A stretch of DNA of 64,000 nt from Asterella californica. Taxonomy: Eukaryota; Streptophyta; Marchantiopsida; Marchantiales; Aytoniaceae. A program made the translations under genes and the position numbers. The stretch covers positions 124,001 through 188,000 of the forward strand of contig JAYKYS010000038.1 of NCBI GenBank assembly GCA_036924285.1, given 5' to 3'. Each line of letters begins with the position of its first letter. The first letter of the stretch is position 1. Under the pieces are notes generated by a model, which worked only from the letters and a program-made list of their open reading frames with translations, was not told the DNA's origin and made no database searches. Shown in pieces: positions 11,190 to 58,992 of this stretch.

Positions 11190-13434
11190 ATCTTTGAGCC
11201 TCTTCACAAAATCTGTGTAGCGCGTATGAAATGGTGAGAGAATGATAATATCATTAGTTGGTGATGGAATAACAATTTCATATAGTGATAATGGTAGTGC
11301 GAGATCCATGAGTGATGAGATATGTGTGAATGATGTTGTATAATTCATATTGGATGAAGAAGAAGAAGAAGAAGAAGAAGAAGAAGAAGAAGAAGAATCT
11401 AAAATAACACCTAATGACAATATTCGAAGTTAGGTGGTATCTGTAATGTTAATGGTGCGAGTGATTGTGAGAATGAACTACCAAATTGTAATTCAGTTAA
11501 TCCAGCAGGTAATCGAAGTTCATCTAATGGTTGATTAAAATCAAAGAGAAAACGAAGTGATCGTAATGTTGAAGATGAATTCATTTGGACGAGTGAAAGA
11601 TGATGAATGATTCCAACGATTCAATTCGAGTGTAACGAGTTGCGTGAGTGAGTGATGGTAATGGTACAGATGGACCACGATAGATGAATTCCTCAAGTGT
11701 CGATGGTAGTACCAATCGATTGAATGAATCTTCCAAACCGGAACCAAGTATAATATGCATGAAGAGACGACGTAAAGTTGGAGGTAAATGAAATTCTGAA
11801 GCAACAAAATTGTAAGATTTGATTGTTAGTTGAATTATGTGAGGTGGCCATCGATACTGTGCTGATACTTTAGGTTGACATTTCAAATCGAAAAAAAAAT
11901 AAATTTCTGTTACGGTATCAGGTAATGTGAAAAATGAAAGTGGCTGATTCCATCGCTTTCCTTGGTACACTGTGAACGACTTGAGTTGAGTGTGACTCCA
12001 ATCACGTGGAAAAGTAAAATATCGATGAAAATTAAATTCGATGAGGGTCGAAGGAAGTACTATCGACTCGAGTGATTGGTTATATTCGGATGGTAGTATG
12101 AGTGAGGTTGATCGAGGAGGTAATCGAAGTGCAGAAATATTTTGCTGAAAGACAGTATACTCGTTCTCGTAAGTAGAAAATGTGAGAGTAAGAAGAGATT
12201 CAGGTAGTTGCCATTGTGAAATATCAAGATCATTCACACTTGGATCGAAATCACACTCAAGATAAGTCAATGATGCAGGTAAGTGCCATCCTGTAAGTCT
12301 GTGAGGAATGAACGGACAAATTAACTTGACCAAACCTGATGGATACTGAATTGCCTTCAACTGCATTGATTCTTGCTCATTCAACTGTTGGTAGACCCTC
12401 TGGGGTAATTCGAGTTCAGTCAGTGTCGATGGGAAGGTGATTGAACGTAAATCAAATCCATCAAACAATCGAACTGGTTTACTGCGTGTACTACTGCCGT
12501 TCATATTCTCGTCATTCTCATCCTCCTCGTCCGCATCATCATCATCGGAATCTTCCGCATGATAAGGTAAATCATAAAACTATCGTTTGATCTTGAGTCG
12601 TTTCAGTTGTGGTGGCCAATATGATGAGGCTGCAATTGGTGTCAACTGCCATGACCATAATGCACCGAGTGTAAGTGACTCGACATGGTGTAGTATCGAC
12701 ATCGATACATGAGGTGATAGTAGGATTGTGGATGATATTTCCAATTGTCTGATGGTTGATGGTAAGAAATTAAAATGTGCTAATTCTGGTCTTCCGATTC
12801 GTCCATCATCAGGAGATAATTGCGATAATATTCCAGCTCTGCATCCTCATTCTCACTCACATGCCGATCCTTCATATTCCTCTGATATCTTAGTCAGGAT
12901 CGATCGTGGATCTACAGATCGTGCTAAACAAATGTGATTGATCGCACCAATACGATACGAGGACGGGGGCGAGGATGACTCCGATGAGGAGGACGATGAG
13001 TTTGGATTTGAGTCAGCATTTTTCTTGTGTTTGTCTGTGTCAGTGTCTGTGTCAGTATCAGTATCAGTATCGACTCTCTGAAATGCAAGTGAGTAAGGTG
13101 GTGGACACAGTGTAATTGCTTTCTCAATCAGATCACCCTTTTCATATGAGGAAGAGGTGTGAATGGCAACGACTGTGATATGGCAACAGTACCAAACACA
13201 CTCGTATCATCAAAGAATGGTTGAGCAGTAAATTTCGCACTCATCTCACAGAGACGAGCACAACCACCCGCACGATCAGTCATCACCTGATATGAGACTC
13301 CGCCTTTCATGCGATACTGTGAACCAAGCAGTTGAACTAGGAGAGTATGATTTGCATTACCGAGTGCAACTGTATCACGATCTTGAAGGAAATCATTAGC
13401 GATCTTTTGTGTCAGTACGCGCGAGTATGTTCAT
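11190..13434 (-). pseudogene. Decayed copy of the FNIP-like LRR gene at 44401-46692
   Basis: The reverse strand follows the intact LRR gene at 44401-46692 from its start codon (near 13434) to near its C-terminus, but in broken frames. The first codons already hit stops through indels. A well-conserved stretch (GGVSYQVMTDRAGG, 13128-13310) is cut by a frameshift, and there are stop codons near 12580. The longest surviving frame (11581-12504, about 307 codons) holds LRR units such as FPSTLTELELPQR. A GAA microsatellite sits in the C-terminal part. A multi-exon working gene is less likely, because the breaks are not at splice signals and the intact paralogue has no introns. Confidence 0.8.
11356..11397. 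repeat. (GAA)14 microsatellite
   Basis: Uninterrupted GAA units, about 14 copies, inside the decayed LRR copy. The intact gene lacks this tract at the matching place (near 44615), so the expansion arose in the pseudogene. It would read as polyserine (TTC/TCT frames) on the reverse strand. Confidence 0.9.
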
Positions 13435-23045: not shown

Positions 23046-24919
23046 ATGTTTCTTCGATCGCTCTTCCTCGCCTTTGCCCTCTTCTGTGCCACCGTCACAA
23101 TTGTCACATTTGGTGTTGCCGCAGTTCAACCTGCTCCACCTTCCGATCCTCTCCTGCTAATGCAACTCGGATGCGGCCTTGCGCAGGGCACATGGATTAC
23201 TGTACAAAATCGGCCTGATAGTTCTAATCCACAAGGTACTTCGCGTGTTGCAGCCTGGCACAATATTCCATTTGCCGCCCCACCAATTGGGAATCTTCGT
23301 TGGCAGCCACCTCAGGCACCTACTTGTTGGACAGGTATATTAAATGCAACAACATTTGGTAATGTATGCGCACAATCACACCGTGGATCTGAAGAGTCAG
23401 TCATGACAAACGAGACAGTAGAGGAGAAAGAGCATGGTGCCACTGCCATTCCCTGCTTACTTCTTACACTTCCATCTTTCTTTGCTTCTTTTTTTTCGTC
23501 AGTTGTCTCTATCTGTCAGTCTATGTGCCCGAACGCATTTTGGTCAACCTGACTCTTGATGATGTCATTCCCAAAAGTGCTCTGGGATCACCTGTTCTCT
23601 TCTACATTCATGGTGGTGGTCTAACAGGTGGTTCTAGTAACTCTGAAGTACTCGCACCGTTTGTTGCACATGCAGGTCTCGGTGATCCTTCAGGAGAGTC
23701 GATCATATCAGTCGTCATCAATTATCGTCTCAATATGTTTGGATTTCTTACTATGCCTGAGATGGTTGAGACACAGGATGTAGCTGCAAATTTTGGTTTG
23801 CTTGATCAAATAGCTGCATTGAATTGGGTTCAATCAAATGTTGGCTACTTTGGTGGTGATCCATCACGTGTCACAATAGCTGGTCAATCATCTGGTGGTA
23901 CATCTATCTTTGGTCTCATGAGTTCAAATCTTACACGTGGTCTTTTTAGTGGTGCAATTTCACTCAGTGGTAGTATCAATACTTCAATGACAATTCAACA
24001 AGGATTTGAACAGAATTCAGGTATTGCAACTTCACTTGGGTGTACTAATTCTAGTAGTAGTAGTAGTGATCCGACGACAGTAATGGCATGCATGCGAGAA
24101 CAGTCGATAGATGCACTACTCAATGCTGTACCACCATGTTGGGGTACACCTCATCTCTGGGGTATATCAGATCTTACACCGAATGGTCGTAACTTTTGTG
24201 GATTCATCTTCATTGATGGTATTACGGTACAGACAGGATTCCCTGATGCATTAGCAATCGGTCTAATTGATATTCCACTTATCATTGGTAATATGGGTCA
24301 AGAAGCAGATCTTGCACCTGAACAAGATATATATGGATCGAATATATCATACTGGCAATCACTCTTGAACTCATCTGTTGTGAATTTCAACATACCTCAG
24401 ATGGGTGGCGAATTATATGATATGTATGAAAGTGATTCAAATATTGATCCGAGTAAAGCTTATTGTTCATTTAATACTGATTATGGACTCACTTGTGGTA
24501 CGATTGATCTTCTTCGAGCAGCGAAACTTGGTGGTATTTATTCAAATCCACTCTATTTCTTCGTGAATCAATGGGCACCATCAAAACCAGTTTTACTCGG
24601 CACTAGATCTGCGCATTGGGCATATCATACATTCGATTGGGCTGCGGTCTGCGAAAATTGGCCGATTACTCTCTCTCCCAATGCGAAAGATTGGGAGCTC
24701 AGTTCCCTTCTTCAGACCATCTGGTTCGAGTTTATTCGTACTGGTCGAGTCGAGTCGACTGGTTGGCAGAGTATTGAGGAGGTGGAAGGATTTCCGACAA
24801 ATTACGCTTCCTTCTTATTCAATGTGACTGGATCAGGTCCGACTGAGAATTATAAAGCAGATACTTGTCAATCTCTCGAGGCATTTGGATTCAATCAAAA
24901 CTTCTGGTGGTGCGATTGA
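23046..24919 (+). CDS. Secreted type-B carboxylesterase, copy 1
   Basis: Two exons, 23046-23395 and 23503-24919, joined by a 107-base phase-2 intron. Splicing rebuilds the family motif ...SE-D-CLYLSVYVPE, with the Asp codon split GA|T. The product has 588 residues. The N-terminus is a signal peptide (LFLAFALFCATVTIVTFGVAA). Family motifs in order: RVAAWHNIPFAAPPIGNLRW, oxyanion-hole HGGG, nucleophile elbow GQSSGG (Ser in G-x-S-x-G), and a catalytic-His region near SAHWAYHTFDW. It should hydrolyse carboxylic esters outside the cell or in the secretory pathway; the substrate is unknown. The coding part from about 23600 on is almost identical to the copy at 47046-48923. It is followed by a rearranged fragment of the LRR gene that, next to copy 2, is intact. 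Confidence 0.92.
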
Positions 24920-28352: not shown

Positions 28353-31300
28353 ATGGCTGATGTGAGTACCACACCACCAGTGCAAGGTGTACAGCCGCCA
28401 CAGCCTGGTGCCTTCATCCAGTCACGATCAGCTGCATTTCAACAACAGGCACAATTGAATCTGAATAATGCAGGTAACAATAATAACAATAATGGTGGTG
28501 GTGGTGGCAACAACACCAACGCCAACGCCAACAATCTTCATATCAATGCACCACCACCACACTCACCAAATCCCAATCTCCTCTCCTCACCCGGTATGCG
28601 TGATCAACATCAACAAATCACAACACAACAAGCACTCGCTGCAGTTGCTGCACCATATCTTACTGGACTTACAGGTGCATCGATGTTACTCCACTCACAC
28701 AACCTCTCACACGCATACAATAATCCACATCATCGTCGTCCTGAGAGCTTGATTCCAACACTGGATGAAGTTGGCCTGGCTGTAGAGATTGTTAAACAGG
28801 GATGGCTACACAAACAGGGAGGCGCGAGAGGAGGAAGAAAGAGCTGGTTAGTTGAGAGAGGAAAAGAGGAGGAGAGAGAGGAGTGTAGAAAGAGGAAGAG
28901 ATGGAGGAATACGCATGCGAGATGCAAAAGTTCACACTGTTTTCTCTATTTTTATCCAACAGGAAACGACGTTGGTTCGTGCTGAAAGAGGATTGTCTGT
29001 ATTATAAGGAAAGTCCTGATGTCAGTATTTAGATGAGAGAAGTTGAGATGAGTTGGATGAGGATCGAACTCTTCTCATAAATCGATTTCTGCTCCTCTTC
29101 ATCTTTAGTCCCTCGTCCTCCTCGGTGTGATGCCACTTCACGGTTGTCACATCCTCGATCTCGGTTGTTTGACCCAATCACCTCCTCCACCACACAACGA
29201 GACTCAAACTGTGTGTCACGAATGTAAACGTGCTTTCAATCTCCTCGTCGCGAAATATCATTGTAAGAATTGTGGTAATACCTTCTGTGCGAATGATACG
29301 ACGAAAAGGATTAGTATTCCGAAATATGGTTATCATGCGAGAGTACGTGTGTGTGATGCTTGTTATACGACTGTGGCAGCAGAATTAGAGAAGAATGATG
29401 CCGTCCTGAAGTTACTCTCACTAACAGGAGAAACCATCCTGGATCCAACCGCACGTACAACAATCCAGGCACACGAACAAGCGATGCAACAACTGAAGAA
29501 AACGAGTTCGCAAGATATGACGAATGATCCATCATCAGCATCTGCAGCGAAGGATTTGACGACACCGACAAGTGCGAATGATAAACGTACCTCCTCCTTC
29601 AACGCATCACCTGCTGGTGCAGGACCTACTGCCGCGAATGCTACTTACAATCTTCCTTACGGTGCACCAACACAAGAAGACAAGAAGAAATTTACACTTC
29701 CCGCAGTGAATAAACCACATCTCTTCGCATTGAAGAATAGTGAACGTGAATTATGGCTTCATGCAGATGATGCACAGACGAGACAAGAATGGGTGAGTCT
29801 GATTCGAAATATTCAACATCGTAAGAACTTTCATAAGACTCTTCGTACACCATTGAATAAATTACTTGCAGCAGTTACGACTCAAGCACAACAACAACAG
29901 CAACTTCTCACATCACCTCAAGCTAGTCCACCTGCTGCCGGAAAGACAGCGAAAGCATTACCAGCAGCACACCAGAACACATCTGATGATGAACTCGATC
30001 TACATCCAGCACATTCACCATCATGGGAGATTGATTACAGTGCAATTACAATCCTAAACAAAGTCGGTGTCGGTGCATTCGGTGAAGTATTTCGTGCAAG
30101 ATTATGGGGTACAGAAGTTGCATGTAAGACGTTGAAGACAGAACAATTTAAAGATACAGCAGCACTGTTGGAAGATTTAAAGAAGGAGGTCTCGATCCTC
30201 TCACAATTACGTCATCCAAATGTCGTTCTCTATATTGGTGCATGTACGAAACCACCGAATGTGTGTATCATGACAGAATGGTGTTCACGTGGTTCATTGT
30301 ATGATGTGTTACACGATTATTCAGTACACTTACCAGCGAAGTTATGTATCGATCTTGCGATGGGTATAGCACAAGGTATGGCATATTTACATTCCCTGGA
30401 GAAGAAGATTATTCATCGTGATTTAAAATCACATAATATTCTCGTCAATAAAACCTTTCAAGTCAAAGTCGCGGATTTTGGTTTGTCACATGTGAGAGAA
30501 CTGCAAGCGAAGAAAGGTAGTATCTCAGGCAAGTCTGGTGGATTACAATCACAGAGTGGAACATTGAATAGTTCACACGGAAATACCAATGTTACAATCA
30601 CACATAAAGGACCGCGACACTATGGAATCTTTGGATGTTTGAGATCAGATATGATGGTGAGATTAGCGAACGGGAAGAGTATTCGTGCAGGATTAGTGAG
30701 AAAAGATATGAAGTTAGCTAGTGATGCTGGTGATGTAGTCGTACTCGCAGCGTGTCCCTCCGAAGCTTCCCTACCAACATCGAATAGCTTCGCTCGTATC
30801 ACACATGACGATGGTACATCGTATGTTGTTACGAGAGGAGAACCGGATCATACCTTGACGTTGCAATGTGTGAGAGGACCTGAGATGAATGTGAGTGGAC
30901 AATGGTGCAGTATTCGTATCATCGAACCAACGACACTTCAACTCGTGGAATGGGGTCGACGCCGCTACATGAATGATTCTGATATCACCACACTCTGGAC
31001 ACAATTCCATCACGAACGCATCACCTCACCTGAATCTCTCCCAGCGAGATGTCCGAAGAGCGGAGATGGTGTGGATATTACTCTACAGACATTGTTGAAA
31101 GCAGAAGAGAAGATGTGGAAAGGGGAGAATGAATATTTTCGTGGTATCAAGATCTCTTCATCATCATCCTCCTCCGACCTACCCTCTCCTTCAAAATCCC
31201 TCGCCGCCACCACTACAGTCAAAATCACTTCCATCCTCCTCCTCACCACACCCCACACCTACGCTCCAATCACCGTGTCCGGCAACTCCCGTTATCTTCT

Positions 31301-34300
31301 CTCCGACGGCACACTCACACACAATACACCCGAATGGATGGCACCAGAAGTCATGGAAGGAAATGTGTATACGGAGAAGATTGATGTCTACTCATTTGGT
31401 ATCCTCCTCTCGGAACTTGTCACACGTCAGATGCCATTCCATGATCAATTTCGTATCAAGTCTTATATGGATGTCGTAGATGCCGTCTTGGATCAAGGTG
31501 CAATTCCAACTATTCCGAAATGGTGTGAGAATTTACTTGGTGGTATTATCAGGGAATGTGTCTCACGTGTACCGAGTGAACGACCGAATTTCACTGACCT
31601 CATTCTGAGATTGAGAGAAGTTGCTGATCTGGAAGACTCGTTGTATTTCTTTGCTTTTGATTTACCGAGATTGAGACAGTTAATGATGTCAAGTAATCCT
31701 GGTATTCAATCACTCGCTGCCAGTGAAGTAGCTGCTCTTCTGAGTGCATCTCACATCCGACGACGATCATCTCCAGTCGAAGTCATGACACCATCAAGTC
31801 CAAGTTTAAGTACATCCTCATCAGCGAAGAGGAGATTGTCTGGTGAGAGAAGTGTCTCGACAGGGGGAGGTGGTATCAATGGATCACCAGCACTTGGACC
31901 GACAAGACAAGCGAATATTAGTGGTGCAAGTAGTAATGGTGGTAGTCCTGGAATGAAACCTATCGTATTACAAGCGCCTGTAGCGACACAACCGATTGCA
32001 CCAATTAATTTAACTGCTCCCTCATCCTCTGCCAATCCTCTCCTCTCACCCGCTTCCTCCTCCGCAATCAATCTCGGTGGTCTGTCCTCTCCTCTCCTCT
32101 CCGGCCCTGCTTCACGCTATACTCATGTTGAAGGTGATGCATGGATCTTAGGAAATGAAGATGCATTTGATTTCTTGGAGAGATTTACACAGTTACTGTC
32201 ATCATCACATCGTGAAGTACAGTTACATTCGTGTCGTGCACTGTATTCTCTGTTGATGTTAAGTCAAAATGATCCGATTAAGAGAGCACAGGATAGGGAG
32301 TTAGTGATTCAATGTGGTGGATTGGGTTCGCTCCTTGCACTGTTATTGTCATCATCAGCACTCTCCTCTGCTGCTGGACAAGTCCTCCTTCTTCTCACCG
32401 CCGAATTAACTCCTTCCGAACAATCCGCCTTCATCGGACTCGATCATGTCGGATTGAATCAACTCTCCTCTATCATTACAAGTGATATCTTACAGGATGA
32501 GTATGTCCTCCTCGATGTCAGTGCGAGAATTGCGAGGAAACGTGCTGTCTTACAAGTTGTAGGACAATGTGCGAGGGATCCTGGTCCAAGTGGTTCTCCC
32601 GGACCACACGGTCGTAAGCCACGTCAATCTGCACATAAGCGTAGTGCACGTCATCATACAAAGTTTGTCGGTAGTGTCGTACAGGAAGGTGATGAGACTG
32701 GTGCAGAGACAGAGGATGATGATGGCTTGATCAATGCATCACCACCGAATGCACAACATCTCGATCAAGATCAAGCTGGATGGGATGGACCTGATCCATG
32801 GGATTTACCACTCGTACGTGAACGAAGTGAAACAGCGAATCCACTCGGTTCACAAGCTCCACGTGCTTCCGATCATTCTCCTTCACCAAGCTCACCTGAA
32901 CTTCTTCAACTCTTCACACAACTGAATGAACTCCTCGTTTCTACAGCAGGACAACCTGTCCCAGAGAAGATGAGTGATTGGTATAGTAATATCGTTGAAT
33001 CTGGTTGGGTACTGAGATACGAACTTGATGCAGATGAATGGCATATGTCATACGCACTTGTATTACCAGATGAGATGCGTCTCTTCCATGCTCCATCAGA
33101 TGAGCCAGATGAGCCCTTGACGATCTTACGTACACGTATTGCTGATCCAGATGCTGACGCTGGTATGCTAGGTGGAGGAATGGGTGGCATGTCAAGTGGT
33201 ATGTCGATGGGAATCAAGACCTTACCAGCAAAGATCCGTTTAGGACATAAACACGGTCTGCCACACTGTTTCCAGGTCGAAGATTGTGGACGTATCTTCA
33301 CTTTCTGTAGTGGTACGAAAGAGAGGCAAGAGAAATGGAAGGAGGGTATCACAGGAAAGAAACCAGGTGATACACAAGCATCACAACCGAGCTTGACACC
33401 GAGTCAGAAGTTTACAATGGGTGGTGGTACAATGATGGGTACCGGACGTACTTCTGTTCCTCCACAACTTGCAACGAATGCACTTCAACTTACGACAAGT
33501 AGTGGCAGCTTGATCCCTGCACCACCAAGTACTGATCCTCCTTCCTCGAACGGTGGTACAGCTGGGACAGGCGGTGCAGGTACAGGTGGTGCAGTCATGT
33601 CTGGTATGTTGTCACCAACAGTTCGTATCATCAGTACCACACCCACTGCAGATGATCCAACACTCGGTCGTGATATTCCTCACTTGGATATGCCAACACC
33701 ACCATTCGCGAAACGTTATCGTGATATCACATTTCATGGATATCTCATGTTACGTGATTATGGTGGTGGAAATAATGGTACGAATAATACTTGGGTTCTG
33801 AAATATGTCTTGCTTGTTGGTACAACACTTCGTGTATTCGATTCACATCGTTCCTCACCGAATGATCCATGGGCTGAACATGAAATTGATCCAGAATTTA
33901 CGAATGCGACACATGCGAGTATGAGTGCGATTCTGATGACAAATAATCCTCTCCTCGCTCCGATGCCTGCTGCTGCAGCTTCAGCAGTTGCGAATCAAGA
34001 TCCAAAGAATCGTGGTAAAATTCTCGGTGCGAATGAATTCTTCATTCGTCTCCATCACTCCTCTGTTCAATTCGATTGTTGGGCTGCCAGTTCCCGCGAA
34101 AAGGCGAAATGGTTACAAGCATTATGTGCCGATCGCTTAGGTCCAATCTTCGCAGCGAATCAACTTGCTGTCTCGAGTGCGAACTTAGCTGCTGGATTAA
34201 GTCCAGGTCGTATACAAGCATTCATTGCATACTATGGACATATTGATTATTATGGCTTATTGTTTAGGAGAAGACGTTTAACAAATAGATGGATGAGAGA

Positions 34301-34607
34301 ATTCGTATGTCTGATTGATAGTGAAGTACATTATTACGAGTCACCTACAGATCCTGTTGATCAACCAAGTGGAACCTTCTATATCGCTACAAACTCCGGC
34401 AAAGCATTTCATATCAAACAATCAAGTAAGAGACCACATTGTATTGGTGTGATTAATCCATCACGTACTTTTTATTTAGCTGCTGAGACAGAGAAAGAGT
34501 ATCTCTGTTGGACAAATGCGATTCAACAGAATCAGAGGAGATTAGCGAGAAGGAGAGATGATAGAGAGAGAGGTACGACCACGGATTATCATAGGAGGAA
34601 GGCGTAA
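28353..34607 (+). CDS. PH/FYVE-TKL kinase-PH signalling protein interrupted by an intein
   Basis: Exons 28353-28846, 28963-29020 and 29109-34607; introns of 116 and 88 bases. The precursor has about 2016 residues. Splicing joins RKSW to KRRWFVLKED, giving the start of a PH domain (residues about 146-200). A FYVE zinc finger (CHEC, YHCKNCG, FC, VRVCDACY; about 218-278) follows, then what looks like the PH C-terminal half (LWLHADDAQTRQEWVSLI; about 378-425). The kinase starts near 490: GVGAFGEV, VACK, HRDLKSHN, DFGLS, WMAPE, which is TKL/Raf-like. The activation segment carries a 230-residue intein-like insert (694-923). ARM-like helices (about 1190-1290) and three further PH domains (about 1471-1601, 1720-1861, 1895-2001) complete it. 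It probably binds phosphoinositides through FYVE/PH domains on endosomes or plasma membrane and phosphorylates Ser/Thr. Kinase activity should require insert removal. Confidence 0.88.
30636..31325 (+). other. Mini-intein (Hint-type) in the kinase activation segment
   Basis: In-frame insert of 230 residues between Gly and Thr of the kinase motif G|TPEWMAPE. Residue 1 is Cys (CLRSDMMVRLANGKSIRAG, block A-like). Block B-like sequence 'DDGTSYVVTRGEPDHTL' has His72; the usual TxxH Thr is replaced. A stretch DITLQTLLKAEEKMWKG resembles the segment common before the C-terminal block in inteins. Block F/G-like TYAPITVSGNSRYLLSDG ends in TLTHN, giving the penultimate His and terminal Asn, and the next residue is Thr (+1 nucleophile). 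The usual block F Asp and His are not obvious. No LAGLIDADG or HNH endonuclease motif was seen; a Ser-rich linker sits in the middle. It is expected to excise itself and ligate the kinase halves. Confidence 0.85.
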
Positions 34608-44400: not shown

Positions 44401-46692
44401 TTAGATGAATTTATGCAGTTTTTGGTACGATGCGAGAGGTGTCACTACGATATCACGCTGCAGTTTGAGTCTCCTCACGAAATCGGTGTAACGCGTATGT
44501 AATGGTGAGAGGACGATACCTCTAATTGTTGGTGATGGAAGAAGAATTTCACGCAACGACAATGGGAGTGCGAGATCCATCAGTGATGAGAGATGAGTGA
44601 ATGAGGTATTATTCTTAGTGGGTGTAATAACAACACCTAATGACAATACTCGAAGTTTAGGTGGCATCTGTTCGGCAAGTGGTGCGAGTGACTGTGAGAA
44701 TGACTCACCAAATCGTAATTCAGTTAATCCAACAGGTAATCGAAGTTGATATAAATGTTGATCAAATGGATCGTCAAAGCTAAGTGACTGTAATGTTGGT
44801 GGTAATATGAATTCACCTGGACAAGTGAATGAAGAATGATTCCAGCCGATCAACTCGAGTTTGACGAGTTGCGTATGAGTGAATGATGGTAATGGTGCAG
44901 ATGGGGCATGATAGATGAATTCCTTGAGTGTTGATGGTAGTTGAGCCAACGAGGTTAACACTTCTATTGTGCCATCTGCATGTATCTCAATTGATTCAAG
45001 TTGATCAGGTAGTTTCAATTGATTGAATGAATCTTTGGTACAGTAAGATCCATGGTGAAGGATGAGGCGACGCAAAGTTGGTGGTAGAATAAATTCCACA
45101 TCGACCATCGTTGTGGGATCCTTAACGGGGGCTTGAAAAAGCGACTCGAGTTTGACTTCATTCAGATGAGGTGGCCATTGATAATCTTTAGGTACATGAG
45201 GTAAATACTTACAAAGAGCAAATTCGATACGAGTAACGGTTGAAGGTAATGAAAAGGATGCGAGTGGTTGTTGTCGAGGTGGCGGATACACTGTGAATGA
45301 TGAGAGTTGTGTGTGATGCCAATCAAGCGGAAAGGTTGACCCTTGAAAGTTGAATTCAATGAGTGTCGTAGGAAGCACCATCGACTCGAGTGGCTGATCA
45401 TATTTAAACGGGAACTTGATTGAAGTGAGATAAGGAGGCAATCGAAGTGCAGAAAGATTTTGACTGAGAACCTCATTTATAAACTGTTCATCTGGACCAT
45501 CAGAGAAGGTGAGAGTGAGAAGCCATGATGGTAGTTCCCATTGTGAGATATCAAGATCATTCACATTCAGATTGAAGTCACACTCGAGATGAATCAATGA
45601 TTGAGGTAAATGCCATCCTACAAGTCGGTGTGGAATAAATGGTCGAATCAATTTGATCAAACCTGATGGATACTGAATCGTACTCAGTTGCTTCGATTCT
45701 TCTTCATTCAACAGTTCGTACATCCTCTTTGGCAATTCGAGTTCCGTCAATGTCGATGGAAAGATGATTTTGCTTACATCGATTTCACTAAAAAATTGTC
45801 TTTTACTGACATCATCTTGTGCTTCCTCATCAGAAACATGAAACCATCGCTTCAATTTGAGTTGCTTCAATTGTGGTGGCCAATATGATGAGGCTGCAAT
45901 TGGTGTCAACTGCCATGACCATAATGCACCGAGTGTAAGTGACTCGACATGGCGTAGTGTCGACATCGATACATGAGATGATAGTAGGATTGTGGATGAT
46001 ATTTCAAGTTGTCTGATGGTTGATGGTAAGAAATTGAAATGTGCCAATTCTGGTCTACCAACTCGTCCATCATCATCAGGTGTATTATAATAGGTATAAT
46101 ATTCCTCATTCACACTATCACATACCAATCCTTCATATTTCTCTGATGTTATCTCAGTCAAGATCGATAGTGTATTTATAGATCGTGCCAGACGAATGTG
46201 ATTGATCGATCCGATACGATACGAGAAGGACGAGGACGAGGAGGATGAGAAGGACGATGAGTTTGGATGTGAGTCAGCATTTTTATTGTGTTTGTCTGTG
46301 TCAGTGTTAATGTCAGTATCGACTCTCTGAAATGCAAGTGAGTAAGGTGGTGGTGGACACAGTGTAATTGCTTTCTCAATCAAATCGCCCTTGTCTTGCA
46401 TATGAGGAAGAGGTGTGAATGGCAACGACTGTGATATGGCAACAGTACCAAACACACTCGTATCATCAAAGAATGGTTGAGCAGTAAATTTCGCACTCAT
46501 CTCACAGAGACGAGCACAACCACCCGCACGATCAGTCATCACCTGATATGAGACTCCGCCTTTCATGCGATACTGTGAACCAAGCAGTTGAACTAGGAGA
46601 GTATGATTTGCATTACCGAGTGCAACTGCATCCCGATCTTGAAGGAAATCATTTGCGATCTTTTGAGTCAGTACGTGCGCGAGTGAATTCAT
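44401..46692 (-). CDS. Intact FNIP-like leucine-rich repeat protein
   Basis: Intronless 763-residue frame from ATG at 46692 to TAA at 44401. No signal peptide or membrane span is seen, so it is probably cytosolic. Residues 1-130 are a conserved N-terminal region of unknown fold (GGVSYQVMTDRAGGCARLCEMSAKF), followed by a Ser-rich linker. From about residue 210 there are many irregular repeats of about 22-25 residues with the pattern 'LPxxLxxLxFxxxFNQPLxxL' (e.g. LPPTLRRLILHHGSY, LPVGLTELRFGESFSQSL), typical of the FNIP/LRR repeats of amoebozoans. It is likely a protein-binding scaffold; the partner is unknown. It is divergent from carboxylesterase copy 2 (353-base spacer). A full-length dead copy lies at 11190-13434 and a fragment at 25003-25370. 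Confidence 0.85.
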   Translation of the reverse strand: MNSLAHVLTQKIANDFLQDRDAVALGNANHTLLVQLLGSQYRMKGGVSYQVMTDRAGGCARLCEMSAKFTAQPFFDDTSVFGTVAISQSLPFTPLPHMQDKGDLIEKAITLCPPPPYSLAFQRVDTDINTDTDKHNKNADSHPNSSSFSSSSSSSFSYRIGSINHIRLARSINTLSILTEITSEKYEGLVCDSVNEEYYTYYNTPDDDGRVGRPELAHFNFLPSTIRQLEISSTILLSSHVSMSTLRHVESLTLGALWSWQLTPIAASSYWPPQLKQLKLKRWFHVSDEEAQDDVSKRQFFSEIDVSKIIFPSTLTELELPKRMYELLNEEESKQLSTIQYPSGLIKLIRPFIPHRLVGWHLPQSLIHLECDFNLNVNDLDISQWELPSWLLTLTFSDGPDEQFINEVLSQNLSALRLPPYLTSIKFPFKYDQPLESMVLPTTLIEFNFQGSTFPLDWHHTQLSSFTVYPPPRQQPLASFSLPSTVTRIEFALCKYLPHVPKDYQWPPHLNEVKLESLFQAPVKDPTTMVDVEFILPPTLRRLILHHGSYCTKDSFNQLKLPDQLESIEIHADGTIEVLTSLAQLPSTLKEFIYHAPSAPLPSFTHTQLVKLELIGWNHSSFTCPGEFILPPTLQSLSFDDPFDQHLYQLRLPVGLTELRFGESFSQSLAPLAEQMPPKLRVLSLGVVITPTKNNTSFTHLSSLMDLALPLSLREILLPSPTIRGIVLSPLHTRYTDFVRRLKLQRDIVVTPLASYQKLHKFI

Positions 46693-47045: not shown

Positions 47046-48923
47046 ATGCCTCTTCGATCTCTGAATCACTTCCTTCTGGCCTTCCTCTTCTGTGTGGTCG
47101 CTGTCACATTCGGTGTTGCGACCAAACAACCGGAGGATGTTCCTCCTTCCGATCCTCTCCTGATGCAAATTGGGTGTGGCCTCGCTCAAGGCACATGGAT
47201 TACTGTACCAAATCGGCCTGATAGTTCTAATCCGCAAGGTACTTCGCGTGTTGCAGCCTGGCATAATATTCCATTTGCCGCACCACCAATTGGAAATCTT
47301 CGTTGGCAACCACCACAAACACCTGCTTGTTGGACAGGTGTATTAAATGCAACAACATTTGGTAATGTATGCGCGCAAGACATCGGATTTGGTACAGAGG
47401 AGTCAGTCATGACAATCGAGAGAGCAAGAGGGAAAGGGAAATAGACGTCGTGATTCTCTCCTACTTACTTCTCTTCTTTTCATTTTTTCGTCAGTTGTCT
47501 CTATCTGTCAGTCTATGTGCCCGAACGCATTCTGACCAGCCTTGTTCTGGCCCGTGAGATCGGTGACGCCACTTCCGCGAGTACTCCTGGATCCCCTGTC
47601 CTCTTCTATATTCATGGTGGTGGTCTTACAGGTGGTTCTGGTAACTTTGAAGTACTCGCACCGTTTGTTGCACATGCAGGTCTCGGTGATCCTTCAGGAG
47701 AGTCGATCATATCAGTCGTCATCAATTATCGTCTCAATATGTTTGGATTTCTTACTATGCCTGAGATGGCTGAGACACAGGATGTGGCTGCAAATTTTGG
47801 TTTACTTGATCAAATAGCTGCATTGAATTGGGTTCAATCAAATGTTGGCTACTTTGGTGGTGATCCATCACGTGTTACAATAGCTGGTCAATCATCTGGT
47901 GGTACATCTATCTTTGGTCTCATGAGTTCAAATCTTACACGTGGTCTTTTTAGTGGTGCAATTTCACTCAGTGGTAGTATCAATACTTCGATGACAATTC
48001 AACAAGGATTTGAACAGAATTCAGGTATTGCAACTTCACTTGGGTGTGCTAATTCTAGTAGTAGTAGTAGTGATCCGACGACAGTAATGGCATGCATGCG
48101 AGAACAGTCAATTGATGCACTACTCAATGCTGTACCATCATGTTGGGGTACACCTCATCTCTGGGGTATATCAGATCTTACACCGAGTGGTCGTAACTTT
48201 TGTGGATTCATCTTCATTGATGGTGTTACGGTACAGACGGGATTCCCCGATGCATTAGCAATCGGTCTAATTGATATTCCACTTATCATTGGTAATATGG
48301 GTCAAGAAGCAGATCTTGCACCTGAACAAGATATCTATGGATCGAATATATCATACTGGCAATCACTCTTGAACTCATCTGTTGTGAATTTCAACATACC
48401 TCAGATGGGTGGCGAATTATATGATATGTATGAAAGTGATTCAAATATTGATCCGAGTAAAGCTTATTGTTCATTTAATACTGATTATGGACTCACTTGT
48501 GGTACGATTGATCTTCTTCGAGCAGCGAAACTTGGTGGTATTTATTCAAATCCACTCTATTTCTTCGTGAATCAATGGGCACCATCAAAACCAGTTTTAC
48601 TCGGCACTAGATCTGCGCATTGGGCATATCATACATTCGATTGGGCTGCGGTCTGCGAAAATTGGCCGATTACTCTCTCTCCCAATGCGAAAGATTGGGA
48701 GCTCAGTTCCCTTCTTCAGACCATCTGGTTCGAGTTTATTCGTACTGGTCGAGTCGAGTCGACTGGTTGGCAGAGTATTGAGGAGGTGGAAGGATTTCCG
48801 ACAAATTACGCTTCCTTCTTATTCAATGTGACTGGATCAGGTCCGACTGAGAATTATAAAGCAGATACTTGTCAATCTCTTGAGGAATTTGGATTCAATC
48901 AAAACTTCTGGTGGTGCGATTAA
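47046..48923 (+). CDS. Secreted type-B carboxylesterase, copy 2
   Basis: Exons 47046-47401 and 47495-48923, with a 93-base phase-2 intron at the same place as in copy 1 and the same GTCAGT donor; 594 residues. The ATG at 47046 starts a signal peptide (LNHFLLAFLFCVVAVTFGVA); the frame is open further upstream to 46923 but without signal-peptide character. It carries the HGGG oxyanion hole, GQSSGG nucleophile elbow and catalytic-His region SAHWAYHTFDW. Downstream of GSPVLFYIHGGG I see only eight residue differences from copy 1, whereas the segment just after the intron (SLVLAREIGDATSAST) and the intron itself differ strongly. This suggests recent duplication or gene conversion limited to most of exon 2. 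Confidence 0.92.
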
Positions 48924-52495: not shown

Positions 52496-55400
52496 CTACT
52501 GTGTAGAGGAGTCTTCATCTTCTTGTTCTGTTGGATGGAGTTTAGGCGTTGGATACTTCTGCTCTTCAATATCCCCACGGTCGTCCTCGTGGTCAACATC
52601 GCTGCCGGCACGATGCTGCCTATGCTGCTGATGCGACGACTGTTGATTCTGTGGTGACGGCGATGGAGGTAGGGTATCGTCATCGATTGCAATACTCGGT
52701 GAAAAGTGACTCAATGGATTGAGAGTCGCCTCATCGTCATCACCGGAAGAAGAACGACGATGTTGTGTCATGTACGCATCATCGTGAGGATAACCATCAT
52801 CGTCGTGATCGTATGGTGAATCGATTACTATTGGTGCTGTGTAGGGATGAGAATGGTCTTCATATTGTTCGCGTGGTTGTTCTTGCTCCTCCTCGTTCCT
52901 TTGTTCTGGTACCTCTCTCAGCTGACTCCCACCTTTCTTCTGTTCTTCATTCGATTCAAATTTCTTCAATGTCTGTAATCTCTGTTCATGTTCTCTCATA
53001 CCGAGTTCAGATGACAAGACAGAAGGAAATGGTGCTGCGAGAGAGTAGGTGTAGTGTGTGGTGGAAGGCTGATAGGAGGATGGTAAGCAACTCATGTAGT
53101 TCTCACCAACGACATCATTACTATGTTGAGAACTTGTGCCTGCTGTGAGATGACCATCCATAAAAGATGGATGTACACCAGACACACCAGCTCCTTGTGC
53201 AGATGCTGTGGTGGTGACGGTACGAGTATGCATGAACTCATCACCAGCATTCGTCATATTCGAATCGTGATGATGGGCTGGCACCGAGCTCATCTCCTCA
53301 CCTGCTTGTTCAGGCGTCTTGAAATCTGCTGTTGTAGGAAGACCATGACTTGCACCAACAATATGCACTCCATTCGTGGAACCAACGCCGCGATATTGGC
53401 CTGTTCTGTTTGTTGGTGTAATTGGTGGTACTGGTGATGGTGTTGCTGTTGTTGTGGTAACACCACCACTGCCACCACCATGTGTAGCAGCTGCACTACC
53501 GGTTGGTGTTGCTGTCTTGAACATGGCTGGGAGAAAGAGATGGGCGTGTGCACGACCCGAAAGTAGTCCTCCACGGCCGGAACTGAGTCCTTTTGCACTG
53601 CGACTTGATTTACCACTACTCTTTCCACTTGCAGTAGCAGTCGCGATTCCACCTGCACCTGCTAATGTGTGACGAGGTGAGAGGACAGGAGAAAAGCCAT
53701 TCGGTGTCGGAAGTTTCGTCGTGGAATCAATATCAACACGACGATGTGGATGACCATCAGGAGTGCCATCAGTATGATGTTTCTCATCAGTATCATCATC
53801 ATCGTGCTTCTTATCAACTTCCATCATCTCCATCATGACCCCCTGTTCTCTTTGCTTCTCAGCTTGCATCAGTGCAGCAGCATGTTGTGATACTTCACCT
53901 GGTACAACGAGTTTCGTCGGAATTGGGTGTATCAACGCAGCGACAGGACGATATTTGATGTAGTAGAGTTTGACTGAGACGGTTGCGAAGGATTGTAGAA
54001 GAGAGCATAAACTCAATCCAATACCCATGATCAGCATCTGTGAGTTCGGTTGATCGGAGAGGAGGGTTTGCAGTGGGAGTAGGATAATAAGAAAGAGTAT
54101 ATAAATAATCACACTCGCCGCTGCTGTATTACTTTCATTAAATGCAACTGCTGCACGACGAATCTTCCAGGCGTTGTAGACACCCCATGTTAAGAGTAAG
54201 ACGAGTGCGAGGAATTGTACGATCAGCCATGGAAGAAAAGATGATGTACTCTCACATTGTGGTACAATATAACCCAACGTTGATCCAGTTCCGCGAAGCA
54301 TCGAATGTGTGTACATTCCTAACACTGACATAATGACAAGTGCAGCAATCTGTAAAACGGCAATCGCACTTAATAGGACACTCATTCTTCCGATCGATAA
54401 AGTACGGCGTTTGAGTGTCACTCTCGAATAAATCTGCCGAATTCTCTCCGTCTTCATATCAAATGATGATAACGAGAGCATCAAGCCAACAGAAATAAAC
54501 CAGAGTCTCATATGACAGATACCAGAGTGTTGTGAAGAGGAGATTGCGAAGAGGATTCCTCCAAGATTTAACAGGAATAATCCTACGACTATGAGTGCAA
54601 GGAAACCAGGCGTAGCTGATTTCATGACGGAATGTGTTCTGTAATGATAAATCATATAAAGTAAATAGATTTCAACCAATCCAACAAATCCGCCGAACGA
54701 GTACACTGCGATCTGCAAACTCGTCTGCAGCTTGAAAATTGGTGCACAATAGCCGGAAAGAACAGTAAATGGTGTAGGAATCATCTCTCCAGTCTTGCGC
54801 TGTTCTTTCAACTCATCTGGCTCAGCAAAATCAGCTGGACATGTCTGGATGAGCTGGTATTCGGCACGGAAATGTGTCATGTTCACGTCACGTGAACGAA
54901 AGTTGAGCGTTACTTGGTTCGAGTAGATGAGCACGGATGTGGAGTAGACACAGTTGGTGTCGAGGAAAGGAGAGATTGTGGAAGAGGAGGAGTAAGAAGA
55001 TACACCATTCGAATACCTCTCATCTGTGGTGTCATTCTCACTCGTCGCATTCATGTCATAACATCTCCACTTCACTTGCTGATCCAACAAACTTGATCCA
55101 GTGAAAGTAGCAATTCGATCACCTTCCAGGGTCTCATCTCCGAGAAAGACTTCGAGGCGATTGAATGCACCGGTGAAATGTGCTGGATGGAAGAGGAGGG
55201 TTAAGTTGATCATGCGTGTGAGGGAGAGGAGGGAAGCTGCTGCTGCAGGTGAATTAGATGAGTCAGTCGTGTTAATCTCCAAAGCAGACGATGGTCTCGC
55301 ATCAATACACCATGATGTATCTAAACCAGTTAACATACGCGCTGAACCGAATGGCGCATCAGAGAAAGTCGGTACGAGTTGGTCAACAGACGGGGTAGAG

Positions 55401-58400
55401 AAATCGGAAGCAGGAACGGCAGCAAGATTGATCTTTGACACGTAATAAGAACTCTGCTGTTGTTGTTGTGAAGTCTGATTCCAATTCGCTTGATTACTCA
55501 GATCACCATTCTCCACCATTCCTGTCGACAAATTAAGATTCTGTGCTACCACTAATGTAGTTGTAGCAGGAATCTGTTCACAAATGAGAATATTATCTGT
55601 ATCGGACGAGGAAGATGAGAGATAGTATGTTTCACCATCTTCTGTCGTAACTAAATCATCAGGATCACTAGCTCCTCCATCCATGGTCGCAGATTTCGCA
55701 TTCTTCCTAAACCATCCTGAATCACAATCACAGTATTGATAATTAAAATATGTACTATCTACTAGCCAACGACGTGAGCTCTCATCAAGACTTCCTCGAA
55801 AGGAGGGACAGATTACACCGGATAAGTATGCATCACGTGAATAAGAACCCGGAGAGGTATCAACTTCGATTCCGTGTGGAAGTTTCGAAGATCTCGTCCA
55901 TTTGAGTTTTGGATTGCCTGTGGCTATCAAACTCTCGAGTTGAGGTATTCCGTCAAGATTACCAGTCAGTTCAGGATTCTGTGAGATATCCAACACAGAT
56001 AGTGCATTCGTACGTGCAAACTGACCAGAACTGATATCGCCTGAGAGGAAGTTATTACGAAGTGAAAGCTTCACGAGACGATTCCAGTTTGTTGGTGGTG
56101 GTGGTGCACCGTTCGGAACTTGGTTTCCATTTCCAGCACCTCCTCCTCCTCCTCCTCCTCCGCCACCTTGGCCAGGCGGTGGTGGCGGTTTCGTTCCGCT
56201 TCCTCCACCTTGTCCGGGAGGTGGTTTCGTATTATTCTGCCATTGATTGATGTTGCCTGAGATACCACAACTCGATAGATCTAATGACACTAACTGCCCG
56301 ATCGTACGTATGGCATTGATACTGACATTCTTTCCTGAGTAGAGTGGATTAGTCGTCAGTGGAATTTGATTCGAGAGTGGTGGAGTGAGAATATCAGAGT
56401 AGAGTGGGAAGATTGGTGATTGTGAAGAAGACACACCAGTTGATTTGATACCACCTGGCGATAGTGTGAATTGAAGAGGATTAAAACTGAAGTCAATCGA
56501 GTGAACGCTAGTCAAATTCGACCACCACTCAGCGAATCCAGTTGGGGCAGTAAAGTTGTTGTGAGAGAATTGAATTTGCTCCAAGTACTGAACAGTATCT
56601 GCGTTCGCAGTCAAAAAAGATAAAGAGTTATCACTGAAGGAGCCCGAAAATTGATTCCACGAAAAATCGAGAATGAAAGGTGAGTGGATATCACCAATAT
56701 TCGCCTTCAACACATACGGTAATCCATCTGAAATACAAGGATTAATCGGACCAGAAAAATGATTGTTCTGCAGTGAGTAAAAGAGTTTCGTACGATTCAT
56801 GCTCGGTGGTGCACATATCGCTGGAAATGGCGATCCTGTGAATTTATTCCTATGTAGCAGTAGAGTAGTAAGTTGTGAAAAATTCGCAAAGAATTTCGGG
56901 ATTATACCATCGAGTTGATTTGATTCAAGTGAGAGACCAGTAAGATTTGTGTATCGTGCCCAAGTTGGTGGTATTGGCCCCATGAACTGATTTGTTCCGA
57001 GGATGATACGTTCGATGGAACGAGGGAGATCGAATGGAAGTGGTTGTCGTGATAAAGAATTTCTACTCAAATCAAGTGATCGTAGGTGAGGTAATGTCGC
57101 ATTCCATCTTCTCGGTATACGACCGTGCAGCGATTGACAACACAGATCGAGTGTGATAAGATTCGGATAGATGTGAAGTGGTTGCGGTAGTGATTGGTTT
57201 GTAAATGGTGGAAAGAAACCTCCAGTGCCATTACCATTACCATTACCAACATCTGCAGTGCCATTGCCGAAACCAATAGAACCTGTAAAATTATAAATCA
57301 AAATCGAGGCAATATCATCTTGCAGCCTATTATACCCTAAACCAATATAATACCATTCATTCACCTGATTCATCGCATGAAATGGGAAGGAGGTGAGTTG
57401 ATTGCCATTCAAGTTCATGACAGGACCATGTATTGTTGTTGCGTTGGAGCCAGATTGTCCTGGAATTGTTAAGTATTCGCCATAAGGCCAACTCGAGAGA
57501 CTAGAGAACCAACCAGCCAAACCTGTACCAGTACCAGAGATCGCGTTATCGCCGAGATCCAAACGACGCAAGCCACGGAATGCAGCGAAGATAGATGAAT
57601 CGGGAGGAAGTGGACCGCGCAGCGAACGCTGACTGAGGACGAGCGAGGAGAGCGCGGCAGGACACGAGTTCGGATCGTCGGTGATCGAAGTGCCATTAAT
57701 CACGGTCGTCTCTGTCGTGTTAAGTAAGTTCGTCCCATTAAACACTGCTGTCGCCCAACATGAAATCCCGAGCCATTTTCCTCGACACGGATCAGCTTTC
57801 GGATCTTTCGAGTCAATCCACGAATCACTCAGTATCTGTTTCCATTGATCTGCTGCTCTACCTAGTTGTTCGTATCCTGTCGTATCGAGGAGCAGTGATG
57901 CATTCAGTGAGGCGACGAGCCAGTTTGGACCATCAAGCGAGAAGTAAAGTGTACGGAGTGCGAAACGTTCGTGACGTGGCATCAGACAGAGATTGGTTGG
58001 CGGAGGAGGAGGACCTGTACCGGTAGAGGAGGATGAAAATGATGATGTTGAGGACGATGAGGGTGTCGATGAAGATGATGATGATGAGGATGAAGAAGAC
58101 GATGCAGATGATGATGATGAGTCGAGGGCTGTTGATGAAGATGAAGGCGACGTGGAGTTGTCGCCTGCTGTGGATGATGGCGGTGGCGGCTGTTGTGATG
58201 ATGACGACGATGATGGAGGAGGTCCAGAAGATGATGGAGGTGGGCCTGACGATGAAGGTGGTGGGCCAGAGGAGGCTGGAGGAAGACCAGACGAAGATGG
58301 CGGTGGAGGCGGTGGAGGAGGCGGTGGTTGAGGGTGCTGTGAGAGGACGCGTATCGGTGCGATGATAATGCATAATATAAGTATACATAATATCATACGT

Positions 58401-58405
58401 GACAT
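52496..58405 (-). CDS. LRR-ectodomain class C GPCR
   Basis: Intronless frame of 1969 residues from the ATG at 58405, chosen because it starts a signal peptide (MILCILILCIIIAPIRVLS). The frame is open to an ATG at 58579, which would add 58 polar residues. The signal peptide is followed by a Pro-rich then Ser-rich stretch and a plant-type LRR N-cap (LRTLYFSLDGPNWL..WKQILSD..DPCRGKWLGISCW). Many LRRs come next (LRRLDLGDNAISG, LRSLDLSRNSLS, LTGLSLESNQLDGIIP), with a Pro/Gly-rich break near 56100-56230 and a membrane-proximal beta/Cys region. Seven membrane spans lie at about residues 1225-1485 with class C features: VMKSATPGFLALIVVGL, a W-x(3)-VGL..LSSFDMKTERIRQIY stretch, and AWKIRR..FNES. A cytoplasmic tail of about 480 residues is rich in His, Ser and Gln. 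It should sense a ligand through LRRs and signal through G proteins. Confidence 0.87.
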   Translation of the reverse strand: MSRMILCILILCIIIAPIRVLSQHPQPPPPPPPPPPSSSGLPPASSGPPPSSSGPPPSSSGPPPSSSSSSQQPPPPSSTAGDNSTSPSSSSTALDSSSSSASSSSSSSSSSSSTPSSSSTSSFSSSSTGTGPPPPPTNLCLMPRHERFALRTLYFSLDGPNWLVASLNASLLLDTTGYEQLGRAADQWKQILSDSWIDSKDPKADPCRGKWLGISCWATAVFNGTNLLNTTETTVINGTSITDDPNSCPAALSSLVLSQRSLRGPLPPDSSIFAAFRGLRRLDLGDNAISGTGTGLAGWFSSLSSWPYGEYLTIPGQSGSNATTIHGPVMNLNGNQLTSFPFHAMNQVNEWYYIGLGYNRLQDDIASILIYNFTGSIGFGNGTADVGNGNGNGTGGFFPPFTNQSLPQPLHIYPNLITLDLCCQSLHGRIPRRWNATLPHLRSLDLSRNSLSRQPLPFDLPRSIERIILGTNQFMGPIPPTWARYTNLTGLSLESNQLDGIIPKFFANFSQLTTLLLHRNKFTGSPFPAICAPPSMNRTKLFYSLQNNHFSGPINPCISDGLPYVLKANIGDIHSPFILDFSWNQFSGSFSDNSLSFLTANADTVQYLEQIQFSHNNFTAPTGFAEWWSNLTSVHSIDFSFNPLQFTLSPGGIKSTGVSSSQSPIFPLYSDILTPPLSNQIPLTTNPLYSGKNVSINAIRTIGQLVSLDLSSCGISGNINQWQNNTKPPPGQGGGSGTKPPPPPGQGGGGGGGGGGAGNGNQVPNGAPPPPTNWNRLVKLSLRNNFLSGDISSGQFARTNALSVLDISQNPELTGNLDGIPQLESLIATGNPKLKWTRSSKLPHGIEVDTSPGSYSRDAYLSGVICPSFRGSLDESSRRWLVDSTYFNYQYCDCDSGWFRKNAKSATMDGGASDPDDLVTTEDGETYYLSSSSSDTDNILICEQIPATTTLVVAQNLNLSTGMVENGDLSNQANWNQTSQQQQQSSYYVSKINLAAVPASDFSTPSVDQLVPTFSDAPFGSARMLTGLDTSWCIDARPSSALEINTTDSSNSPAAAASLLSLTRMINLTLLFHPAHFTGAFNRLEVFLGDETLEGDRIATFTGSSLLDQQVKWRCYDMNATSENDTTDERYSNGVSSYSSSSTISPFLDTNCVYSTSVLIYSNQVTLNFRSRDVNMTHFRAEYQLIQTCPADFAEPDELKEQRKTGEMIPTPFTVLSGYCAPIFKLQTSLQIAVYSFGGFVGLVEIYLLYMIYHYRTHSVMKSATPGFLALIVVGLFLLNLGGILFAISSSQHSGICHMRLWFISVGLMLSLSSFDMKTERIRQIYSRVTLKRRTLSIGRMSVLLSAIAVLQIAALVIMSVLGMYTHSMLRGTGSTLGYIVPQCESTSSFLPWLIVQFLALVLLLTWGVYNAWKIRRAAVAFNESNTAAASVIIYILFLIILLPLQTLLSDQPNSQMLIMGIGLSLCSLLQSFATVSVKLYYIKYRPVAALIHPIPTKLVVPGEVSQHAAALMQAEKQREQGVMMEMMEVDKKHDDDDTDEKHHTDGTPDGHPHRRVDIDSTTKLPTPNGFSPVLSPRHTLAGAGGIATATASGKSSGKSSRSAKGLSSGRGGLLSGRAHAHLFLPAMFKTATPTGSAAATHGGGSGGVTTTTATPSPVPPITPTNRTGQYRGVGSTNGVHIVGASHGLPTTADFKTPEQAGEEMSSVPAHHHDSNMTNAGDEFMHTRTVTTTASAQGAGVSGVHPSFMDGHLTAGTSSQHSNDVVGENYMSCLPSSYQPSTTHYTYSLAAPFPSVLSSELGMREHEQRLQTLKKFESNEEQKKGGSQLREVPEQRNEEEQEQPREQYEDHSHPYTAPIVIDSPYDHDDDGYPHDDAYMTQHRRSSSGDDDEATLNPLSHFSPSIAIDDDTLPPSPSPQNQQSSHQQHRQHRAGSDVDHEDDRGDIEEQKYPTPKLHPTEQEDEDSSTQ

Positions 58406-58992
58406 AACGCGCGTGATGGATGTTGGGGGTGCGGATGGATGTCGATGTTGATTAGTGGAGAAACGGAGAAGTGAACGATGCTGCTGATCATGCTGTGGTG
58501 TGACCAAGATGTCGTTGATGGACTTGAGACCTTCCTTGCTCTCCTCCATCGTCCATTTCCTCCTCATCCTGGGACGCATTATTGCGTGCAGACGATAGGA
58601 GGAAGCACAAAGGAAGAGCTGCCAATCGAATGCGCAGCGCTGTGCTGTGATGAGGAACTTGAGAGATGATGTCTGCTGTGATGAATTAATGATCGGAAGG
58701 ATGGCAGACGATTTCAGATAGTAATCTCCTTCTAATACACGAACAACTAAATGCTTCCGATGTTGGCGCTTGTGAATTCACGATGCACGCATTAGCATGA
58801 CTGTACACTGCCGAGACGTCTCAAGAGCGGAAGGAACACTTACATGCGCTTCCGATGCAAGACGATAGTATTAGCGGATTAATTAACAGCAGTTCAGGAA
58901 GTCGAGGTTGCGCGCAAGTGTCGTGATTGTAATGGGTGCTGTGTATGTTGTTGTTCGCGATTGAACCTGACACAGTTGCTGCTGCTTGCGCT
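58406..58992. other. Intergenic, upstream of LRR-GPCR gene
   Basis: 587 bases between the GPCR signal-peptide ATG and the stop of the coiled-coil gene. 58406-58579 could code an N-terminal extension of the GPCR. The rest shows no supported frame. Confidence 0.45.

Follow-up and report, generated by a model that had tools for sequence, protein, structure and literature searches.

A putative mini-intein in the activation segment of a FYVE- and PH-domain TKL protein kinase

The most common hosts of nuclear inteins named in a 2018 survey are Prp8, VMA1, RNA polymerases, ThrRS, GLT, CHS and eIF5B, which according to its Results cover 184 of 186 nuclear inteins (186 by subtraction) (PMC5784728). 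Its size classes describe inteins of up to ~200 amino acids (aa) as lacking a homing endonuclease (HEN), and those of ~200-700 aa as carrying either an endonuclease or a linker. The inteins of the RNA polymerase subunits RPB2, RPC2 and RPA2 are described in PMC1635734 as inserts detected against homologues in fungi, a green alga and a slime mould. The Prp8 mini-intein of Cryptococcus (PDB 6mwy, 6mx6), as presented in PMC6805012, is HEN-less, begins with Cys1, ends in His-Asn, and has a flexible, unresolved region between blocks B and F. Here, we describe a 690-base insert in a protein kinase gene, found in a 64,000-nucleotide stretch of DNA filed under Asterella californica (contig JAYKYS010000038.1, positions 124,001 to 188,000; hereafter the window). 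We conclude that the insert is very probably an intein, as the original prediction from the sequence had proposed; this identity is well supported by its termini, its C-terminal motif, profile-profile comparison, a predicted Hint fold and an exact empty site in relatives. Furthermore, it is likely to belong to the VMA1/Prp8/viral lineage as a mini-intein whose homing endonuclease has been lost, to occupy a new host protein and site, and to splice actively. It shares the absence of a HEN, Cys1 and the His-Asn end with the Cryptococcus intein, which differs in being 171 aa long, in its spliceosomal host protein and in its native +1 Ser (PMC6805012). With the RNA polymerase inteins it shares a nuclear location and detection as an insert against homologues, whereas the six complete nuclear ones are 354-488 aa long and lie in polymerase subunits (PMC1635734).

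The insert is placed between the Gly and Thr of GTPEWMAPE and comprises residues 694-923 of the precursor (Table 1). It starts with TGT (Cys) and ends with CAC AAT (His-Asn), directly followed by ACA (Thr+1, 31326-31328). The inferred gene begins at the ATG at 28353, and removal of two introns gives a host protein that would be 1786 aa long without the insert, which itself is contained in the open frame 29127-34607. We found FYVE, protein kinase and PH domains in the host protein by Pfam, and the kinase match consisted of two stretches flanking the insert both in Pfam and in a sequence search of solved structures, where CTR1, B-Raf and MAP3K kinases were the closest relatives. We take such CTR1/Raf-like kinases, and hence the host kinase, to be tyrosine kinase-like (TKL); its domain retains Lys, HRD, DFG and APE. 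The original prediction of an in-frame, stop-free insert at exactly these coordinates, with a Cys start and a His-Asn end before Thr, can be read directly in the sequence, and its residue numbering is borne out by the two-intron gene model.

VMA1-type and viral PF05203 inteins share with the insert the C-terminal motif GNxR[FY]LLxDxx[VLI]THN followed by Ser or Thr, as well as an N-end profile. They differ in size: 41 of the 46 viral inteins compared are at least 290 aa long and five are 138-148 aa, against 230 aa here. These viral inteins were collected with a DNA pattern derived from the C-terminus of the insert (GNSRYLLSDGTLTHN) and run against viral contigs. In all 92 matching stretches the motif lies in an open frame and the next residue, which the pattern leaves unspecified, is Thr (69) or Ser (23); the matches include copies, one C-extein start recurring nine times. 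A filter for a clear intein start retained 52 distinct segments, and 46 remained after a redundancy cut. All five of these submitted to Pfam matched PF05203 (Hom_end_hint), with weak NCBIfam matches, and among solved structures a profile of the 46 recovered PI-SceI as well as Prp8 inteins. In the viral-contig intein L078, near 513-557, the C-extein begins TPEGAPVG, which we take to be the second subunit of an RNA polymerase.

A hidden Markov model (HMM) of the C-terminal end scored the insert at 27.5 bits, compared to 4.2 for the best of 2000 shuffles. Because its sequences were picked by the same window-derived motif, this agreement is not independent; that of the N-terminal end is. The N-end HMM, covering the first 115 residues, ranked the insert first of 2003 targets, narrowly (E 0.089 versus 0.13 for the best shuffle), and on the whole frame gave E 4.8, with an alignment beginning at profile position 1 and residue 1. 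By hhalign, profile-profile comparison gave P 3.5e-6 for the insert, with the strongest of the 313 controls at 0.0059; with N-end columns only, the values were 3.5e-4 and 0.0023. A structural model built with an intein alignment as input predicted a Hint fold, as the original prediction had anticipated, and its top structural matches were the two Cryptococcus Prp8 structures. The outcome of the proposed intein profile search was nevertheless divided: the HMMs and hhalign profiles from the 46 viral inteins match the insert, while Pfam (PF05203 included) and NCBIfam yielded nothing at E<=1, which speaks against this resemblance. In addition, a single-sequence search of the PDB found no significant similarity, a query of the proteins of 1004-3195 aa and 220-700 aa in a set of 5.8 billion returned nothing at E<=10, and the insert used as query against the viral contigs found nothing.

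Cys1, His72, His229, Asn230 and Thr+1 are all present. His72 occupies a column that is His in 46 of 46 compared inteins, and Thr66 one that is Asn or Thr (43 N, 2 T, 1 A), yet with three extra residues before His72 compared with the usual TxxH of block B. Every Prp8 intein analysed in PMC6805012 has the block B His, and the block B Thr is less conserved. Of the B-, F- and G-like blocks first proposed, F and G match far beyond chance, and B fits in its His column and not in its Thr spacing. When the insert was aligned by MAFFT to five viral mini-inteins, block B fell at YMNDSDITTL; this placement was rejected, as the larger alignment, hmmsearch and hhalign all place it at YVVTRGEPDHTLTL. The insert had no Pfam match at E<=1 to an endonuclease domain, LAGLIDADG or other, and at 230 aa it would be of the linker kind by the size classes given in PMC5784728.

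The alternative that fares best is a decayed intein, in which splicing is lost or reduced to cleavage and the kinase is inactive or acts as a scaffold. It draws on the silence of the curated profiles, the odd block B spacing, and changes in the insert at Thr6, Gly28 and Gly211 (invariant in the 46 inteins) and at Asp29 and Arg34 (45 of 46 each). We consider it unlikely, since every direct chemical residue is present, both kinase halves keep their catalytic residues, and the kinase is about as conserved as its insert-free relative. After the insertion site, identity to the relative P0003 is 74.6% for the window kinase and 73.1% for P0001, which lacks the insert; against eight outgroups, the window kinase exceeds P0001 in two cases, ties with it in two and falls below it in four (+1.5 to -4.3 points). 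Before the site, identities are similar or higher over unequal lengths (146-186 columns for the window kinase, 173-190 for P0001, the row of P0001 itself excluded), and we therefore prefer the after-site comparison. A tree of 39 rows places the window kinase with P0001 and P0002 (Shimodaira-Hasegawa-like approximate likelihood ratio test, SH-aLRT, 97), with a terminal branch of 0.085 versus 0.18 for P0001; the branch of P0002 (0.30) was not used, as its predicted protein seems to include a translated intron. The named ones among the nearest rows are from Plasmodiophora brassicae (SH-aLRT 85-86 for wider groupings), so that the organism carrying the kinase gene is possibly rhizarian. Judged from these comparisons, the host kinase does not appear to be decaying. 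An enzyme whose activation segment was permanently broken would not be expected to remain so conserved, and this is the strongest indirect sign of splicing, which we infer from the conservation of the kinase together with the intact nucleophiles.

Of 865 protein matches, 120 were listed, and nine of these were aligned at the insertion site. In all nine, T comes straight after G; the sequence in P0001 and P0002 is HKGPRHYGIFG followed by TPEWMAPE, the same as the flanks of the insert. The insert-free FYVE/PH TKL kinases (P0001, P0003 and Plasmodiophora P0007 and P0030) are orthologous or close to the host, with identical or near-identical flanks. A pattern located a candidate site in 115 of the 120 listed kinases, and 126 of 185 candidate places, some of them second kinase domains or chance matches, are GT and 44 GS. 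The C-end intein HMM recognises the window frame (2.6e-6) but no member of the 120 at E<=1. With the N-end HMM there was no match either, and this carries no weight because it missed the window frame as well. A search with the pattern HN followed by T..[WYF or similar]M.PE gave seven prokaryotic stretches and one viral one, none with an upstream in-frame DFG and none, as read, apparently a kinase with an intein. Other kinases with an intein at this site, which the original prediction suggested looking for, appeared neither among the 120 nor among these eight. The absence from relatives makes the insert look like a gain in the lineage of this gene, at a highly conserved position of the kinase fold; the Thr at the split site is part of the kinase P+1 loop.

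The insert might also be considered an ordinary, tolerated loop that arose by an unrelated in-frame expansion, as activation loops vary in this kinase family (up to 167 residues from DFG to APE in P0053). However, the variation in the nine aligned relatives lies upstream of YG.FG/YGIVG and never between G and T, and the Hint match, the Cys and His-Asn-Thr termini and the colinear profile alignment make such a loop very improbable.

The reading frame of the insert runs through 230 codons without a stop, and each of the other five has 6-15 stops; stop-free frames arose at a frequency of 0.00035 in simulations with the composition of the insert and in 0 of 20,000 with that of the window. Relative to the host gene, this frame has a codon log-likelihood of +2.4, and the five others lie at -60 to -142. 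A stop-free spliceosomal intron, for which the two short GT-AG introns of the same gene offer a parallel, is scarcely credible for an insert that ends in TGTTTG and CACAAT and is therefore not a GT-AG intron, has no AG near its 3' junction, shows zero stops with host-like codon use, and resembles inteins at the protein level. Third-position guanine-cytosine (GC) content of the insert (0.465) exceeds that of all 1372 host-gene windows of 230 codons (maximum 0.378) and climbs to 0.58 over its last 77 codons; this is compatible with a separate origin and proves little.

For the predicted mini-intein, the splicing steps we propose are those of the general class-1 intein mechanism. The precursor would be translated as one chain, insert included; Cys1 would attack the Gly-Cys bond, Thr+1 would take over the N-extein, and Asn230, helped by His229, would cyclise. 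Formation of a Gly-Thr peptide bond would then rebuild the activation segment. Because the intein lies within the catalytic activation segment, the enzyme probably works solely after excision, and the kinase should be inactive before splicing. It is conceivable, though doubtful, that splicing is conditional, so that a redox, metal or temperature cue would switch the kinase on once and irreversibly; the precursor might then be kept inactive by its broken P+1 loop. The position of the insert is the sole basis here for such a post-translational switch.

Titles and the beginnings of abstracts, with subscription papers and supplements outside this scope, contained, for the papers listed, no report of a protein kinase with a natural intein. 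The word "kinase" is absent from the main texts of PMC5784728, PMC7765530 and PMC1635734 and appears once in PMC5874633, about engineered ligation. The earlier statement that no such intein is known is consistent with these surveys and the literature covered. If true, inteins would reach into signal transduction through one that lies in the catalytic core of a signalling kinase and, should the host be rhizarian, as the kinase tree suggests, into a group unnamed in the main text of the 2018 survey (PMC5784728). Splicing would be read out directly as kinase activity, so the system would also offer a clean natural test of whether inteins regulate at the post-translational level.

Table 1. Features of the predicted intein and its host gene, in window positions
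Feature	Coordinates	Strand	Basis
Host gene, PH-FYVE-TKL kinase-PH precursor, 2016 aa	28353..34607	+	inferred gene model; FYVE, kinase and PH by Pfam; N-terminal PH region from comparison with P0001
Introns, both GT-AG	28847-28962 (116 bp), 29021-29108 (88 bp)	+	placed via relative P0001
N-extein kinase part, glycine loop to ...HYGIFG; Lys, HRD, DFG present	30024..30635	+	sequence, domain matches
Predicted mini-intein, 230 aa	30636..31325	+	termini, empty site, profile comparison, predicted Hint fold
Block A (CLRSDMMVRLANG); nucleophile Cys1 30636-30638	30636..30674	+	hmmsearch and hhalign, aligned from residue 1
Block B (YVVTRGEPDHTLTL); His72 30849-30851; Thr66	30822..30863	+	hmmsearch, hhalign, larger alignment
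Linker at usual endonuclease place	30939..31202	+	mostly low-confidence in model; LAGLIDADG match absent
Blocks F/G (YAPITVSGNSRYLLSDGTLTHN); His229 31320-31322, Asn230 31323-31325	31260..31325	+	motif, C-end HMM, alignments
C-extein kinase part, begins at Thr+1 of TPEWMAPE	31326..31616	+	sequence, domain matches

Elsewhere in the window, we observed two carboxylesterase open frames of like size, perhaps duplicates, at 23525-24916 (+, 464 aa) and 47517-48920 (+, 468 aa), and open frames with FNIP repeats at 11581-12504 (-) and 44404-46692 (-). A 2027-aa open frame at 52499-58579 (-) combines leucine-rich repeats with a class C seven-transmembrane receptor domain (7tm_3).
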